From Anaerolineales bacterium (GTDB lineage Bacteria; Chloroflexota; Anaerolineae; Anaerolineales; Villigracilaceae), in assembly GCA_013140605.1 (NCBI GenBank), contig JABFSL010000035.1, positions 1 through 45,936 on the forward strand: a stretch of DNA of 45,936 nt, read 5' to 3'. The notes beneath the pieces were generated by a model, which saw nothing but the letters and a program-made list of their open reading frames with translations, made no database searches and was not told where the DNA came from. The position numbers and the translations under genes were made by a program. This document shows, piece by piece, positions 7,439-30,937 of the stretch (position 1 is its first letter; each line of letters starts with the position of its first letter).

Positions 7439-7546
7439 ATGTTTATAGCGATTGCCCTCCCGCGTACACGTCGTCCGAAGCCCACTTCTTTGAGAAGGTT
7501 GGGAGTTTTTTGTTTTGACGGCGGTAGTAACGCAATGGTGCGCTAA
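7439..7546 (+). CDS. Arginine leader peptide (35 aa) of the argG attenuator
   Basis: The reading frame encodes 35 residues including LPRTRRPKPTSLRRLG. Arg codons fall at positions 9, 11, 12, 19, 20 and 35. It lies directly after the promoter, is followed by an intrinsic terminator (7568-7604), and precedes argG. This is the layout of leader-peptide attenuation: scarcity of charged tRNA-Arg would stall the ribosome and alter RNA folding. A TGTTTTG segment starting at codon 25 (7511-7517) can pair with CAAAACA (7567-7573) in the 5' arm of the terminator. This pairing is short and AU-rich, so the antiterminator is the weakest part of the model. There is no Shine-Dalgarno site; translation must be leaderless. 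Confidence 0.72.
   Translation: MFIAIALPRTRRPKPTSLRRLGVFCFDGGSNAMVR
7481..7514 (+). terminator. Internal terminator-like hairpin within the arginine leader ORF
   Basis: CCCACTTCT (7481-7489) pairs with AGAAG and TGGG (7493-7503, two-base bulge) and is followed by AGTTTTTTG. It overlaps codons 15-22 of the leader. A translating or stalled ribosome would prevent it, while an untranslated transcript could be terminated here. It may instead act as a pause hairpin. Confidence 0.5.
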
Positions 7547-7567: not shown

Positions 7568-7604
7568 AAAACAGCCATCCTTCTCGGGTGGCTGTTTTTA
7601 TTTG
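7568..7604 (+). terminator. Attenuator terminator before argG
   Basis: AAAACAGCCATCC (7568-7580) pairs with GGGTGGCTGTTTT (7586-7598) through one G-U pair, followed by a T-rich run. It lies 21 bases after the leader stop codon and about 155 bases before argG, as expected for an attenuator. Confidence 0.85.
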
Positions 7605-7760: not shown

Positions 7761-9032
7761 ATGAACCCGCAACAAAAACCGCAAGTCAAGAAAGTTGTCC
7801 TAGCCTATTCGGGCGGACTGGATACATCCGTGATCGTGCCGTGGCTCAAAGAGAACTACGGCTGTGAAGTCGTCTGCTTTTGTGCAGATGTGGGGCAGGG
7901 AGATGAAGACATGCGCGGGCTTGAACAGAAAGCCATCAATAGCGGCGCGAGTCAGTGCATTATCCATGACATGAAAGAAGAGTTTGCTGCTGAATATCTT
8001 TTTCCAATGTTGAAGGCGGGGGCGGTTTATGAACACAAGTATTTATTGGGCACATCGGTGGCCCGTCCATTAATTGCAAAACATCTTGTTGATGTGGCTC
8101 ACGAAGTTGGCGCAGATGCGATCGCACATGGCGCGACAGGCAAGGGGAACGATCAGGTTCGTTTTGAATTGACTGTCATGGCGCTTGACCCACGCCTTAA
8201 GATCATCGCTCCGTGGCGCGAATGGGATATCCGCTCCCGCGAAGATGCGCTTGCGATGGCGGCAAAATATAACATTCCCGTCACCGCCACCATCAAATCC
8301 ATTTACAGCCGCGACTCAAACATCTGGCATCTTTCGCATGAGGGCGGCCTGCTCGAAGACCCATGGAACGAACCCGAAGAAGCGATGTTCCAAATGTCCA
8401 CTTCGCCAGAGAATGCACCTGAAGAAGGCGCGTATGTTGAGATCGAATTTGAAAGCGGCAATCCTGTTGCGGTAAATGGCGAAAAACTTTCCGCCGCAAA
8501 AATTGTCGAAACGCTCAACGTCATCGGCGGCGCACACGGCATTGGCCGCGTTGACTTGGTTGAGAATCGTCTCGTAGGTATGAAGTCTCATGGCGTGTAT
8601 GAAACCCCTGGCGGCACCATTCTGCTTTATGCCCATCGCGAACTCGAGTCACTTGTGCTTGACCGCGAGACCATGCACTTCAAGGAAATGGTCGCTGTGA
8701 AATATGCCGAGGTCACCTACAACGGACTTTGGTTCACTCCGTTGCGCGAGGCAATTGACGCCTTCGTCAATTCCACGCAGGGCCCTGTCACGGGTCTCGT
8801 GCGGCTCAAACTTTACAAAGGCAACATCATCACTGCTGGCAAGAAATCTCCGTTCAGTTTGTATCGCGAAGATTTTGCCACCTTCGGCGAAGAGGATGTC
8901 TACGACCAGAGTCATGCCGAGGGTTTCATTCGCCTCTTTGGTCTCAGCATGAAAGTCCGCGCGATGAATGGTCTGCCCGTTTCGGGCCTCGATATGCCCA
9001 AGCCCGATTATTCGAAATTCAAACGTGACTAA
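7761..9032 (+). CDS. argG: Argininosuccinate synthase
   Basis: ArgG joins citrulline and aspartate with ATP to form argininosuccinate in the cytoplasm. The 423-residue product has the N-type ATP pyrophosphatase loop [10 protein letters not shown] (about residues 15-24), [27 protein letters not shown] and [17 protein letters not shown], all typical of the family. GGAG lies ahead of the ATG at 7761. It is the first structural gene after the arginine attenuator. A family A palindromic repeat lies between it and argH. Length and motifs look intact. Confidence 0.97.
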
Positions 9033-23791: not shown

Positions 23792-24853
23792 CTATAAAAG
23801 ACCTTCATTCACCAACAACTCGGCATTATAGATCGATGCACCTGCCGCGCCGCGAATCGTGTTATGTGAAAGCACAACAAATTTAAGATCAAGGATTGGA
23901 TCACGCCTCACGCGGCCGACTACTGTCGTCATGCCTTTGCCTGTTAATCGGTCGAGTCTCGGCTGCGGCCTATCCGCTTCATCCTTGACCTCGATAACTG
24001 GTTTGGGTGTCGAAGGCAGATTCCTAGCTGACGGTTTTGCAGCATAGTCGCGCAACGCTTGAATCGCAACCTCAGGCTCAACGGGTTTATCCAATGCCAC
24101 ACTCGCACAGACGGTATGACCGTCGATCACAGCTACGCGATTGGTATGCGCGCTGAATGTGATGTCTGCCATGTCAATTTTATTCTCGTTAAACCTGCCG
24201 AGCATCTTGCGCGGTTCCCATTCCACTTTTTCTTCTTCACCGCCATTGCCCACGTTGGGGATGACATTGTCCATAATATCGAGTGATGGCACGCCAGGGT
24301 AACCCGCGCCCGAAAGCGCCTGCAAGGAGACCATGAATACCTTCTTCACGCCAAAGGACTCATCCAATGCTTTGAGTGCGATTGTCAAACCCGTGCTTGT
24401 GCAGTTGGGATTCGTAACTATGCATCCGCTCCAGCCATTATTCTTCCGCTGCTGTTTCACCAATTGAATATGCTCTGCATTGATCTCAGGCAGCAGCAAT
24501 GGCACATCCTCGCCGCGCCGATAGGAGGACGCATTCGAGCACACCGCCGCGCCAGCTTTTGCGAAGGCAGGTTCAAGTTCATTAGCGATTTCAGTGTGTA
24601 AAGCCGAAAAGACGATCTTCGCCTGCACCGCATCCGTGTTGGCAGGGACAACAATCATGTCCCGTGCATACGCAGGCATCGGGTCATCCAACACCCAGCG
24701 CGCGGCTTTGGAATATGGCTGTCCGACGGAACGATCCGATGCGGCGAGCGCTACCACCTTGAACCACGGATGATTATCCAGCAAAGAAATAAATCGCTGG
24801 CCGACAGATCCTGTCGCGCCAAGAATTGCTACGGGGATTTGAGATTGGGACAT
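23792..24853 (-). CDS. asd: Aspartate-semialdehyde dehydrogenase (archaeal/fungal-type)
   Basis: Reduces aspartyl phosphate to aspartate semialdehyde, the branch point for lysine, threonine and methionine. The 353-residue product has VAILGATGSVGQRFISLL for NADP binding, the active-site Cys151 in TNPNCTSTGL, QALSGAGYPGVPSLDIMDNVIP, EEEKVEWEPRKML and RVAVIDGHT. The GYPGVPS/EEEK pattern is that of the archaeal/fungal branch rather than the E. coli type. It lies downstream of lysC across a family B repeat and is probably transcribed with it. A hairpin follows the stop. Confidence 0.95.
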   Translation of the reverse strand: MSQSQIPVAILGATGSVGQRFISLLDNHPWFKVVALAASDRSVGQPYSKAARWVLDDPMPAYARDMIVVPANTDAVQAKIVFSALHTEIANELEPAFAKAGAAVCSNASSYRRGEDVPLLLPEINAEHIQLVKQQRKNNGWSGCIVTNPNCTSTGLTIALKALDESFGVKKVFMVSLQALSGAGYPGVPSLDIMDNVIPNVGNGGEEEKVEWEPRKMLGRFNENKIDMADITFSAHTNRVAVIDGHTVCASVALDKPVEPEVAIQALRDYAAKPSARNLPSTPKPVIEVKDEADRPQPRLDRLTGKGMTTVVGRVRRDPILDLKFVVLSHNTIRGAAGASIYNAELLVNEGLL

Positions 24854-24883
24854 TGATAAGAACTCCTTTTAGGTTATACGCCG

Positions 24884-25018
24884 CTGGTTGAGTAGTTCCG
24901 AGCGACAGCGAGGAACGTATCGAAACCAGCAGTGAAAAGTAAACTTTTGATTTTACATATGTAATTCATTGGTGGTTTCGATACGCCCCGCAAAAGCAGC
25001 GGGGCTACTCAACCACCG
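24884..25018. repeat. Palindromic repeat, family B, copy 3 (lysC/asd)
   Basis: Outer arms CTGGTTGAGTAG and CTACTCAACCACC, inner arms CGTATCGAAACCA and TGGTTTCGATACG. It fills most of the lysC-asd gap. Confidence 0.9.
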
Positions 25019-25025
25019 GGATTGA

Positions 25026-26450
25026 TTAATTAACTATCAACTCATGCAGCGCCTTGACAGCATTCTCCGTATCCGCAGTCTCGACCACGAGACTAATGGA
25101 TACTTCCGATGAACCCTGCGCAATGGCGAGGACATTCACGCCGTCATTGCCGAGTTTGCTGAACACTCTGCCAGATACTCCAGGCGTGTGACGCATCCCT
25201 GCGCCGACGACGGTGATGATCGAAACATCCTCTGTCGCCCAAACGCGGTCGATGTCATCGTCTGCGATTTCGTTGGCGAATGCTTTTTCGAGTGCAGATA
25301 AAACAATCGGAGCGATTTCCGAAGGCACTGCAAAACAAATGGACTGTTCCGAAGAGGCCTGTGTGATGAGTGGGACACTTGTGCCCGTGGATGCCACCGC
25401 ACCAAACGCACGCGCCGCCACGCCCGGGACGCCCAGCATACCTCGTCCTTCGATGGTGATCAATCTCTGCTTGCGGATGGCGGTCACGGCTTTGATGACT
25501 TTTCCTTCCACCTTGCCGTTGCTTTTGACGCTGGCTATGAGCCGCGTGCCAGGGTGACTGGGATTGAATGTATTGCAAATGCGCAAGCCAATGCCAGCAT
25601 CCAACACGGGACGGATGGTTTTGGGATGCAAGACTTTCGCGCCATAATAAGCGAGTTCTGCGATTTCGCTGTAATTGATTTCAGGGAGTGTGACTGCTTC
25701 GGGCACAATGCGTGGGTCGGTGGTCATTACTCCGTCTACATCTGTCCAGATCCAGACATCGTCTGCGGGGAGGACTGCACCGATGATGGCAGCGGAGTAG
25801 TCAGAGCCGCCACGGCCTAAAGTTGTAATTGCGCCTTCAGGAGTTGCGCCGATAAAACCAGTTGTAATGGGAATAATTCCTTCGTCCATCAGTGGATTCA
25901 AAATCCCCCGTGTCTTTTCGGTTGTCGCTTTGAAATCGGGATGCGCGTTCTGGTAATGCGCATTTGTGACCACGAACTCTGTCGACTCGATGGCTTTGGC
26001 TTTGATGCCTGCTGCATTCACGACGGCTCCCAACAAGCAGACACTCATTCGTTCACCGAGTGATGCGACCGCGTCCATTGCGCGCGGACTGGCTTCGCCG
26101 AGTACGGCAATCGCTTTGCACAAGTCCACGAGCGAGAAGATCAGCGCGTTGATTTCCTGTTTCGTCTGCTCACGGAGTTTTTCATCTTTGATAAGCGCAT
26201 CGGCGGCGGCGAAGTGTTTTTCTCTCAGCGTGGATTCGGCCGCTGGAAGTGAATCAATTTTCCCGTGCGAAGCTGAAGCGGCGGAGTCCAATAACAGATT
26301 CGTCACGCCAGACATGGCAGATGTCACGACGACGACGCGCTTCCAATCCTTCTTCGCATCTCGAATGATCTGAATGGCGCTGACGAGCGCATCCGCTGAC
26401 CCAACAGATGTTCCGCCAAATTTCATGACGAGTGTTTGTTTTTCTGGCAT
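25026..26450 (-). CDS. lysC: Aspartate kinase with C-terminal ACT domains
   Basis: Phosphorylates aspartate, the first step for lysine, threonine and methionine. The 474-residue product has LVMKFGGTSVGSADAL, the catalytic region ITTGFIGATPEGAITTLGRGGSDYSAAIIGA, and DVDGVMTTDPRIVPEA. The C-terminal ACT pair includes ITIEGRGMLGVPGVAARAFGA and ITVVGAGMRHTPGVSGRVFSKL, so feedback by an end product is likely. No homoserine dehydrogenase is fused. The ATG at 26450 has GGAG upstream; the longer frame would start inside the attenuator terminator. Expression is probably governed by the Thr/Met leader at 26534-26635. Confidence 0.95.
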   Translation of the reverse strand: MPEKQTLVMKFGGTSVGSADALVSAIQIIRDAKKDWKRVVVVTSAMSGVTNLLLDSAASASHGKIDSLPAAESTLREKHFAAADALIKDEKLREQTKQEINALIFSLVDLCKAIAVLGEASPRAMDAVASLGERMSVCLLGAVVNAAGIKAKAIESTEFVVTNAHYQNAHPDFKATTEKTRGILNPLMDEGIIPITTGFIGATPEGAITTLGRGGSDYSAAIIGAVLPADDVWIWTDVDGVMTTDPRIVPEAVTLPEINYSEIAELAYYGAKVLHPKTIRPVLDAGIGLRICNTFNPSHPGTRLIASVKSNGKVEGKVIKAVTAIRKQRLITIEGRGMLGVPGVAARAFGAVASTGTSVPLITQASSEQSICFAVPSEIAPIVLSALEKAFANEIADDDIDRVWATEDVSIITVVGAGMRHTPGVSGRVFSKLGNDGVNVLAIAQGSSEVSISLVVETADTENAVKALHELIVN

Positions 26451-26474
26451 GATGTTTTCTCCTGTATTAAGATA

Positions 26475-26506
26475 ACAAAAACGCCTCACGGAAACGTGAG
26501 GCGTTG
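26475..26506 (-). terminator. Attenuator terminator before lysC
   Basis: On the minus strand AACGCCTCACG and CGTGAGGCGTT (26505-26495 and 26490-26480) form an 11-bp stem around TTTC, followed by a T-rich tail. It ends 25 bases before the lysC ATG. Confidence 0.92.
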
Positions 26507-26533
26507 TGGGTTTTGAGATAACCTATGTTGCGG

Positions 26534-26635
26534 TTACGTCTGACCAAGCACAAATGCCTCACGGAATTCACCGGAGGTAGTGGTCATGGTCATGGTACCA
26601 AGGCCGTGTTTTGTGCTGTTCAGAATGTTAAACAT
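26534..26635 (-). CDS. Threonine/methionine leader peptide (33 aa) of the lysC attenuator
   Basis: The frame from the ATG at 26635 encodes 33 residues with the run GTMTMTTTSGEFREAF: Thr at 8, 14, 16, 18-20 and 33, Met at 15 and 17. It resembles the E. coli thr operon leader in principle, with Met replacing Ile as the second signal. From codon 25 the RNA contains CGTGAGGCATT (26563-26553), which pairs with AACGCCTCACG, the 5' arm of the terminator: eight continuous pairs, one mismatch, then two. A ribosome stalled on the Thr/Met run would leave this segment free and prevent termination; a ribosome reaching the stop would cover it. There is no Shine-Dalgarno site. Confidence 0.85.
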   Translation of the reverse strand: MFNILNSTKHGLGTMTMTTTSGEFREAFVLGQT

Positions 26636-26646
26636 AATTGGGCGGT

Positions 26647-26675
26647 ATTCTATGCGAGTGATTGAAATGAGTCAA
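26647..26675 (-). promoter_or_regulatory. Promoter of the lysC leader
   Basis: On the minus strand TTGACT (26675-26670), 17 bases, TAGAAT (26652-26647). Eleven bases separate the -10 box from the leader ATG, so the transcript should begin within a few bases of the ATG. Confidence 0.82.
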
Positions 26676-28949: not shown

Positions 28950-29054
28950 ATGAATCCATCTTTGTTCACCCTCACCCTTATTGTAGTCGTCCTTGTAGTC
29001 CTTATTATTAAAGGACAATTTTCGGTTAGGATGGCAACGGTGAGAACGAAGTAA
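28950..29054 (+). CDS. Branched-chain leader peptide (34 aa) of the ilv-leu attenuator
   Basis: The frame encodes 34 residues with the run LTLIVVVLVVLII at positions 8-20, eleven of the thirteen being Val or Leu or Ile within the stretch after the first Thr, followed by KGQFSVRMATVRTK. This is the pattern of ilvL/ivbL/leuL leaders. From codon 25 the RNA contains GGTTAGGATGGC (29024-29035), which can pair with GCCGCCCTAACC (29079-29090), the 5' arm and loop of the terminator: seven pairs, one mismatch, then four more. Stalling on the Val/Leu/Ile codons would therefore favour antitermination. The full branched-chain operon follows. Confidence 0.9.
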   Translation: MNPSLFTLTLIVVVLVVLIIKGQFSVRMATVRTK

Positions 29055-29074: not shown

Positions 29075-29109
29075 AAGAGCCGCCCTAACCACGGGCGGCT
29101 CTTTTTTTT
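29075..29109 (+). terminator. Attenuator terminator before ilvD
   Basis: AAGAGCCGCCC (29075-29085) pairs with GGGCGGCTCTT (29093-29103), and a run of eight T follows. It lies 20 bases after the leader stop. Confidence 0.95.
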
Positions 29110-29139
29110 GTATAAATTTAAAGACCGACATATCTCATA

Positions 29140-29269: not shown

Positions 29270-30937
29270 ATGCGTTCAGATACAGTCAAGAAAGGTTATG
29301 AGAAAGCACCGCATCGCGCATTGTTGCGCGCCACGGGTTTGCAGGACGATGATTTCAAGAAACCGTTCGTTGCCATTGTTAATTCTTATGTGGATATTGT
29401 CCCCGGGCATGTGCATTTGCAGGATTTCGGCAAACTGGTAAAGGACGCTGTCCGCGCGGCGGGCGGGGTTCCGTTCGAATTCAACACCATCGGCGTGGAT
29501 GACGGCATCGCAATGGGTCACATGGGGATGAAGTACTCGCTTCCTTCGCGTGAACTAATTGCTGACTGCGTCGAGACCATGATCGAAGCTCATAGATTCG
29601 ACGCGATGGTCTGCATCCCGAACTGTGACAAAATAGTTCCTGGCATGTTGCTGGCCGCAATGCGAGTCAACGTCCCGACCATCTTTGTCTCTGGCGGACC
29701 GATGAAAGCGGGCGTCACACCCGATGGCGAAACCATTGACTTGATCTCCGTCTTCGAAGGCGTCGGCGCATTTTCAGCGGGGAAAATTGACGAGAAGCGC
29801 TTGTCCATTTTGGAAAAGTTTGCATGTCCCTCCTGCGGTTCCTGCTCTGGCATGTTCACCGCCAACTCGATGAACTGCCTAATGGAAGTGCTCGGTCTCG
29901 CCCTGCCTTATAACGGATCTGCCTTGGCGAAGACTCCTGAACGAGAAGCATTGGCGAAACAAGCCGCCGCGCAGGTGATGACTTTAATCGAACGCGATAT
30001 CAAGCCAAGAGACATTGTCACCGCAGAAGCAATTGACGATGCGTTCGCGCTGGACATGGCAATGGGCGGCTCGTCGAATACAGTTCTGCACACTTTGGCC
30101 TTAGCCAACGAAGCCAATGTGGATTATCCGCTGGAACGCATTAACTCCGTCGCAGACAAAGTTCCGCATATTTGCAAAGTGAGTCCAGCGGGCAAATGGC
30201 ACATGGAAGATGTTCATCGCGCAGGCGGAATCCCTGCCATTTTGAACGAAGTCCAGCGGGGCACAGGCATGTTGCATTTTGACCGCATCACGGTCACAGG
30301 CAAGACGTTGGGGGAATCAATTAAAGGCGTAGAAATAAAAGATGAAGAAGTGATTCATAAATATGAAAATGCATATTCCAAGCGCGGAGGCTTGTCCATT
30401 TTGTTTGGCAACCTCGCGCCCAAAGGCTCAGTCGTGAAAGTTGGCGGAGTCAGCCCAGCCATGATGCAGTTCGAAGGTCCCGCGGTCATCTTTGAATCAC
30501 AGGATGACGCGATGGCTGGAATTCTCGCAGGCAAAGTCAAAGCCGGTGATTGTGTCGTCGTGCGCTACGAAGGTCCCAAAGGCGGACCGGGCATGCAGGA
30601 AATGTTATCGCCCACATCCGCGATCATGGGGCAGGGACTCGGCGACAAAGTTGCGCTTATCACAGACGGCCGTTTCAGCGGCGGGACTCGCGGCGCGTGC
30701 ATCGGTCATGTTTCGCCGGAGGCTGCTGCGGGTGGTCCGATTGGGGCGCTCAAAGCCGGGGATGTGATCCAAATTGATTTGGTGGCACGCAGTCTCAACG
30801 TCAAGTTGACCGACGCGGAGATTCAGAGTCGGCTTGCTGCGCTGACTCCGTTCAAGTCCACAACCACATCCAAATGGTTGAAGAGATATTCATATTTTGT
30901 AACGAGCGCGGATACAGGCGCAATATTAAGTAGCTAA
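29270..30937 (+). CDS. ilvD: Dihydroxy-acid dehydratase
   Basis: Dehydrates dihydroxy acids to the 2-oxo acid precursors of valine and isoleucine. The 555-residue product has the iron-sulfur cysteines in [12 protein letters not shown] and [19 protein letters not shown], the motif [14 protein letters not shown] and the C-terminal [26 protein letters not shown] segment. AAAGGAG precedes the ATG. It is the first structural gene after the branched-chain attenuator. A family A repeat starts immediately after the stop. Confidence 0.97.

Follow-up and report, generated by a model that had tools for sequence, protein, structure and literature searches.

The window, i.e., the whole stretch of 45,936 nucleotides that was analysed, lies inside a 3.93-Mb assembly. 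On its minus strand, the aspartate kinase gene lysC is preceded by a promoter, a short open reading frame and a terminator, and is followed by asd. The initial annotation had described the segment upstream of lysC as a leader-peptide attenuator, and its coordinates and sequences proved right, exact to the base. The features of the locus are listed below.

26670-26675, minus strand: -35 box TTGACT, from a promoter scan (spacer 17)
26647-26652, minus strand: -10 box TAGAAT, then CGCCCAA, with 11 nt to the leader ATG
26534-26635, minus strand: leader peptide ORF, 33 codons plus TAA, no Shine-Dalgarno site, peptide MFNILNSTKHGLGTMTMTTTSGEFREAFVLGQT
26576-26596, minus strand: control codons Thr-Met-Thr-Met-Thr-Thr-Thr (ACC ATG ACC ATG ACC ACT ACC)
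26571-26577, minus strand: region 1, CCTCCGG, overlapping the last Thr codon; partner of region 2
26547-26564, minus strand: region 2, CCGTGAGGCATTTGTGCT (also written CCGTGAGGCATTTGTGC); partner of region 1 or region 3
26495-26510, minus strand: region 3, CCCACAACGCCTCACG, i.e., the terminator 5' arm and the upstream CACA extending the antiterminator
26474-26490, minus strand: region 4, CGTGAGGCGTT (terminator 3' arm), and the U-tract
25026-26450, minus strand: lysC, aspartate kinase (TIGR00657, E 3e-124, above cut-off)
23792-24853, minus strand: asd, aspartate-semialdehyde dehydrogenase (TIGR00978, above cut-off)
23670-23546, minus strand: SAM riboswitch after asd (Rfam RF00162, 80 bits)

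The 33-residue leader (ORF 26635-26534) carries the announced alternation of Thr and Met codons at 26596-26576, and the segment CGTGAGGCATT, already noted as able to pair with the terminator, corresponds to 26563-26553. The terminator, with a folding energy of -19.0 kcal/mol, consists of AACGCCTCACG (26505-26495), TTTC and CGTGAGGCGT(T) (26490-26480), then TTTGTT down to 26474. The pairing sequence of region 3 can also be written CACAACGCCTCACGG or CACAACGCCTCACG, and the antiterminator is extended by TTGTG pairing with CACAA, which the initial annotation did not include. As that annotation had proposed, the leader stands before lysC, which starts at 26450 and has its own AGGAG ribosome site (26463-26459), and asd, which follows at 24853-23792. 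Past the SAM riboswitch, the gene order is metY, metA and a second metY. Across the named loci with enough room, asd was found on the same strand within 1.5 kb downstream of lysC in 58 of 68. The gap between lysC and asd contains, at 24881-25019 of the window, two nested inverted repeats with arms of 20 and 21 nt, REP- or MITE-like in appearance. These repeats could affect the co-transcription of asd and, because they sit in the gap, a common transcript for lysC and asd is taken here as an assumption.

Conservation was assessed with 184 lysC upstream regions, reduced to 159 distinct ones by the removal of 25 near-duplicates, regions shorter than 200 nt being dropped. The close set amounted to 70 distinct regions, L172 of the same family among them and the rest with a lysC identity of 66% or more; the remaining regions numbered 89. 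Filtering brought 95 loose calls down to 90 (terminator of -14 kcal/mol or lower together with a Thr cluster), and then to 89 with the exclusion of L217, which has a TTG start and a protein-like ORF; leader starts were set by hand for 7 leaders and a GTG start was assigned to L180. Under these conditions, a Thr-rich leader followed by a terminator was called in 89 of the 159 regions, the putative attenuator appearing conserved in the close set (67/70) and found again in a fraction of the wider phylum (22/89 other regions). A stricter caller was also run, in which real and shuffled sequences were treated alike and an ATG leader of 14-45 codons, a Thr cluster and a terminator of -14 kcal/mol or better were demanded. 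With at least 3 Thr in 8, it retrieved 89/159 real regions vs 4/954 dinucleotide shuffles, and with at least 4 Thr in 8, 79/159 vs 0/954. At the DNA level, the window leader had a match at E<=0.01 in 59 of the 67 close leaders and in none of the 22 distant ones. L091 was counted as a miss of the caller, yet a leader (MSMSMTAT) and a terminator are visible there by eye. In L063 and L087, the leader is absent and no strong U-tract terminator was found near lysC either. The upstream sequence of lysC in L063 / L027 (252 nt) resembles by eye the end of a transposase-type zinc-ribbon ORF. Having neither leader nor terminator, lysC at L063 / L027 would escape attenuation. The initial annotation implied that Thr frame and terminator should be kept together; accordingly, the search of the 70 close regions returned no lysC upstream relative that had retained the terminator and lost the Thr frame.

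The leader is preceded by a sigma-70-like promoter, absent from the initial annotation, which would leave the leader mRNA almost without a 5' UTR. A promoter could be scored for 50 of the 67 close leaders, the scan demanding TA...T and giving none for the other 17; among the 50, 47 have 8-11 nt between the end of the -10 box and the ATG. If transcription began 6-8 nt past this box, the 5' UTR would measure 0-5 nt. In addition, no Shine-Dalgarno match of at least 3 was found before the leader ATG in any of the 67 close leaders, vs 54 of 67 before lysC. Because the leader ATG lies close behind the -10 box and lacks a Shine-Dalgarno site, the leader transcript is probably leaderless. Such a start is not general, since in some distant leaders (e.g., L181 and L182) 38 nt lie between the -10 box and the start codon, and a ribosome site is present. 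Leaderless leader peptides are reported for Actinobacteria (PMC11857589, PMC5784534 and PMC8079986), and PMC3160421 reports the detection of leaderless genes in 4 of 12 Chloroflexi genomes. For motif searches, the loose pattern CGCCCAN{0,5}ATG had no value, with 376 places; TANAATNNCGCSCA served instead, occurring in 11 places vs 5 in the reversed control.

The alternative helices were examined in an alignment of 65 close relatives (65 of the 67 leaders, L037 and L172 being left out). Region 1 (CCTCCGG), which the initial annotation had missed, completes the classical switch between helices 1:2, 2:3 and 3:4. In the 65 sequences, paired cells amounted to 99.4% for helix 3:4, 86.0% for helix 2:3 and 88.8% for helix 1:2, with 28, 36 and 10 doubly changed cells vs 6.3, 14.7 and 2.7 in shuffles, respectively, these cell counts coming from related sequences and not from independent events. 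When the partner was slid by 1-3 columns, pairing reached at most 66.5% (2:3), 52.7% (1:2) and 61.3% (3:4). Other measures of covariation did not stand out for helix 2:3, neither the pairs with a double change (6 vs 4.4 in shuffles) nor the further pair types (16 vs 16.4), and the same two measures were weak for helix 1:2, each being reached by 58 of 500 shuffles. The pairing of 26553-26563 with 26495-26505, for which compensatory changes had been proposed as a check, is kept in the 65 relatives with such changes. Columns 78/162 of helix 2:3 read UA in 45 sequences, CG in 11 and UG in 7, with 2 unpaired, and columns 80/160 read AU in 50, GC in 12 and GU in 2, with 1 unpaired. Column 80, in region 2, covaries with both of its partners, i.e., column 64 in region 1 and column 160 in region 3. 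Together with column 182 in region 4, columns 64/80/160 show T-A-T-G in 42 of the 65 sequences and C-G-C-G in 7. This triple covariation of column 80 is the most telling single result of the analysis. Similarly, columns 78/162/180 (regions 2, 3 and 4) read T-A-T in 43 and C-G-C in 11 of the 65 sequences.

Beyond the aligned relatives, the duplex between leader and terminator surpassed those formed by shuffled leader segments in 70 of the 89 leaders at p<=0.05 and in 41 at p<=0.01; among the 22 distant leaders, 9 passed at 0.05. L093, L104, L154, L155, L157, L160 and L180, several of which bear Met, were far from passing, and their switch is a putative one. L104, L157 and L180 fail this antiterminator test, so that the support there consists of leader and terminator.

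To describe the effect of a ribosome on these helices, the downstream RNA was folded at equilibrium for every codon position of a ribosome along the 65 leaders, using a 12-nt mask. According to this model, the family-mean probability of helix 2:3 was 0.79-0.92 when the A site lay between -16 and +2 nt from the start of region 1, and past the run it fell to 0.50 at +5, 0.04 at +8 and 0.00 from +11 onward. The upstream edge was gradual, with a mean of 0.49 at -34 and 0.23 without ribosome. The antiterminator is therefore predicted to survive with a ribosome on the control codons and to be lost just past them. The probability of helix 2:3 exceeded 0.5 at 114 of 123 Met A-sites vs 291 of 315 Thr A-sites, and results were similar with masks of 10 and 14, so that a ribosome with its A site at Met is predicted to be roughly as effective as one at Thr. 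The window's own leader is atypical, as its 2:3 probability before region 4 exists is 0.91 without ribosome, vs the family mean of 0.23; hence, the model there predicts a loss of helix 2:3 past the run and not a gain at the run. The complete RNA favours the terminator in the model (0.98), which implies that the decision must precede the synthesis of region 4, a timing shared with other attenuators.

The analysis establishes the leader frame and the geometry, the Thr/Met composition and three helices with their compensatory changes. From these we infer how the locus would behave in vivo: leaderless initiation, ribosome stalling, termination or read-through, and transcription of asd together with lysC. 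RNA polymerase would initiate a few bases before the leader ATG, or at it, and a ribosome would load at the nearly leaderless 5' end and trail the polymerase. When Thr- or Met-tRNA is scarce, the ribosome would stall in the Thr/Met run and cover region 1 (CCTCCGG), leaving region 2 free to pair with region 3. With helix 2:3 formed, the terminator would come too late and lysC would be transcribed. Instead, when both tRNAs are plentiful, the ribosome would reach region 2 or the stop codon, or would have departed so that helix 1:2 forms; in the absence of helix 2:3, helix 3:4 would fold and transcription would stop at the U-tract. The locus is thus very probably a Yanofsky-type ribosome-mediated attenuator that controls lysC, and probably asd, through charged tRNA-Thr with charged tRNA-Met as a second signal. 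The "almost textbook" reading given beforehand is well borne out, with a leader ORF carrying codons for end products, an intrinsic terminator and, in the close set, a mutually exclusive antiterminator together with helix 1:2 all recognizable in the DNA.

The same mechanism could operate with threonine as the sole signal, the Met codons being incidental, a product of shared ancestry, of local constraint on the DNA or of spacing, with methionine limitation having no effect on lysC. The proposed coupling of both amino acids holds for most leaders and is not universal, since 10 of the 89 have no Met in the cluster. Met lies inside the Thr cluster (within 3 residues on either side) in 62 of the 67 close leaders and 17 of the 22 distant ones. 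The 5 close leaders without Met are L015 and L046, with Asn/Ile instead, L026, which is Thr-only, and L068 and L090, with Leu/Ala; the 5 distant ones are L154, L162, L165, L211 and L229. L015 (LNITTTTS) and L046 (LNTTTITS), with Met replaced by Asn or Ile, are natural variants of the Thr/Ile type known from E. coli thrL. Beyond the existence of these Met-less leaders, a threonine-only signal would fit the last three control codons, nearest to region 1, which are mostly Thr (56, 59 and 63 of 65), and Met in the close set may be partly inherited.

However, the distribution of Met argues for a second signal. Among the 390 codons at positions -7 to -2 before the last Thr in the 65 aligned leaders, 172 were Thr, 121 Met, 3 Lys and 1 Ile, and the nine positions upstream of -7 in the same alignment held 2 Met in 391 codons. 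The seven-residue stretches showed 34 different patterns, 28 of them with Met, whose position shifts, e.g., TMSMTTT, MTMTTTT, TMTMTTT, MMTMTTT and TTTMMTT. Thr codons in the close clusters (n=338) were ACC (208), ACT (103), ACA (21) and ACG (6). As Thr is mostly encoded by ACC or ACT and rarely by ACG, single mutations would yield Ile more than Met; the reverse was observed, with 96 ATG vs 3 Ile codons in the close clusters. Counted with their 3 flanking residues, 10 of the 67 close clusters contain Ile and 13 contain Lys. Leaders were found in 10 labelled families, the named distant loci carrying no label, and in 7 of them one or more leaders contain Met (f1, f4, f10, f11, f23, f24 and f82; f2, f3 and f56 have none). 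Thr/Met clusters also occur in distant leaders, which have no DNA match to that of the window: TTPMTMTTM (L104), TFMMGMMTTSM (L106), MTTTMRTTTT (L157), TTTTMTLTT (L164), TTTTTTMMTT (L166), TTTTMMTTM (L180) and TMTGMMTT (L182). The comparable predicted effectiveness of Met and Thr A-sites points in the same direction. A purely threonine-driven switch is therefore rather unlikely in our view. Since some leaders are Thr-only or Thr/Ile, threonine appears as the core signal of the attenuator and methionine as a widespread second one.

A terminator controlled by a ligand or a protein, as in a riboswitch or with an antiterminator protein, would not use leader translation as sensor. Alternative helices do not by themselves prove that the ribosome is the sensor, and the fold is unusually stable: the transcript 26636-26479 folds at -55.1 kcal/mol vs a shuffle mean of -35.2, i.e., 5.2 SD better, with 0 of 200 shuffles as good. 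Against such control, the amino-acid choice of the run is strongly skewed, and no Rfam family was found over the leader at the gathering score, while the SAM riboswitch at 23670-23546 was detected in the same window. A lax scan (E<=10) gave 9 chance-level matches with a lowest E of 0.037; Phe_leader, at 24.8 bits vs a cut-off of 55, was discarded as being at chance level. We regard this kind of control as very improbable. That the short ORF encodes a functional microprotein, to which the terminator merely belongs, is scarcely credible: the run is in frame with the start codon in 65/65 relatives, though the caller sought in-frame leaders, whereas amino-acid identity between pairs of leaders amounts to 0.10-0.19 over positions -12 to -7 upstream of the last Thr. 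In 6/65, the distal peptide comes from a different reading frame, so that conservation does not extend to the amino-acid sequence. Some of the conserved distal columns are pairing ones, and a Pfam search with the 33-mer gave no family at E<=10, a query of this length having little power.

Ribosome-mediated attenuation may not be restricted to lysC in this genome. Leaders resembling that of lysC, i.e., a short ORF and a terminator-like hairpin before a biosynthetic gene, with other control codons, were found at argG, ilvD and aroH:

7439-7546, plus strand: argG leader with an Arg cluster (MFIAIALPRTRRPKPTSLRRLG...), by sequence; terminator at about 7568-7598, argG at 7761-9032
28950-29054, plus strand: ilvD leader with Leu/Ile/Val codons (MNPSLFTLTLIVVVLVVLIIKG...); terminator at about 29075-29110, ilvD at 29270
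1517-1591 of L146 (G000:C82): aroH leader with Phe/Tyr codons (MLTTVRFYFAYYFNGLRSVAAGCA) and a terminator-like hairpin; gene at 1706-2077

The argG leader, upstream of argininosuccinate synthase, uses the same promoter and start motif as the lysC leader; it has DNA matches in 19 of 41 genomes, and LPRTRR occurs in leaders of 9 further loci. The branched-chain leader precedes ilvD-ilvB and lacks the CGCCCAA motif, with DNA matches in 24 of 41 genomes and comparable peptides at the majority of the loci retrieved. The aroH-type chorismate mutase corresponds to TIGR01796, and the start motif TAGAATAGCGCCCAA is common to the argG and aroH leaders. Another candidate, L147 (G000:C98:89309), has the promoter motif and no leader ORF; it looked T-box-like by eye, but gave no Rfam match, and was rejected. 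The genome yielded a single homoserine dehydrogenase (L232), and inspection of its upstream sequence by eye showed no Thr/Met leader. It seems reasonably likely that Chloroflexota use leader-peptide attenuators at several biosynthetic genes, reading Thr/Met at lysC-asd, Arg at argG, Leu/Ile/Val at ilvD and Phe/Tyr at aroH, that their transcripts are nearly leaderless and in several cases share a start motif, and that the lysC one is a two-signal gate reading Thr and Met, the end products of the homoserine branch, and not the enterobacterial pair Thr/Ile.

Classical attenuation is known mainly from Proteobacteria, Actinobacteria and Firmicutes, and the present reading would extend it to a deep, mostly uncultured phylum. 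It also suggests that ribosomes on leaderless mRNAs may couple to RNA polymerase closely enough for attenuation outside Actinobacteria. Among the literature matches listed, no title or abstract dealt with attenuation in Chloroflexota, Met-codon leader peptides or Thr/Met/aspartokinase leaders; the work of Lopatovskaya and others (2010), reportedly a comparative survey, lay outside this scope. In the passages of PMC4833913 consulted, a single mention of Chloroflexi places them with the groups whose genomes are few or related. The nearest published Thr/Met leader found is metL of Streptomyces lividans, located upstream of metNIQ, for which PMC8079986 proposes a leader peptide with Met and Thr codons (MSTTSDRTPATEATTTPGARCMCRRMCAF) on a leaderless transcript. 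Unlike the window leader, it belongs to an actinobacterium, precedes a methionine importer and not lysC, and is reported there to miss a typical Rho-independent terminator (PMC8079986). In Corynebacterium glutamicum ilvBNC, the transcription start site lies one nucleotide from the leader start codon and three hairpins act as anti-antiterminator, antiterminator and terminator; this actinobacterial system differs from the window in its branched-chain codons, its operon and its experimental testing (PMC11857589).

The closest functional analogue is E. coli thrL, a Thr-rich peptide before an aspartate kinase gene (thrA). It has a terminator and an antiterminator, and Pfam holds a threonine leader peptide family. 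The Rfam model RF00506 (Thr_leader) had no match to the window leader at E<=10 and finds E. coli thrL (L289) at 122.1 bits; the lysC leader is therefore not a member of RF00506. The statement that the comparable E. coli leader reads Thr and Ile was right, as checked on the thrL sequence. Hence, the second amino acid is Ile in thrL and Met in the window leader, and thrL precedes a fused aspartate kinase/homoserine dehydrogenase whereas the window leader precedes lysC and asd. The natural variants, in which Met is lost, replaced by Ile or moved, make codon identity and position testable as inputs of an attenuator. On this reading, the amino-acid pair read before an aspartate kinase would be evolvable, with Thr and Met here, Thr and Ile in E. 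coli, and Thr alone in some families.
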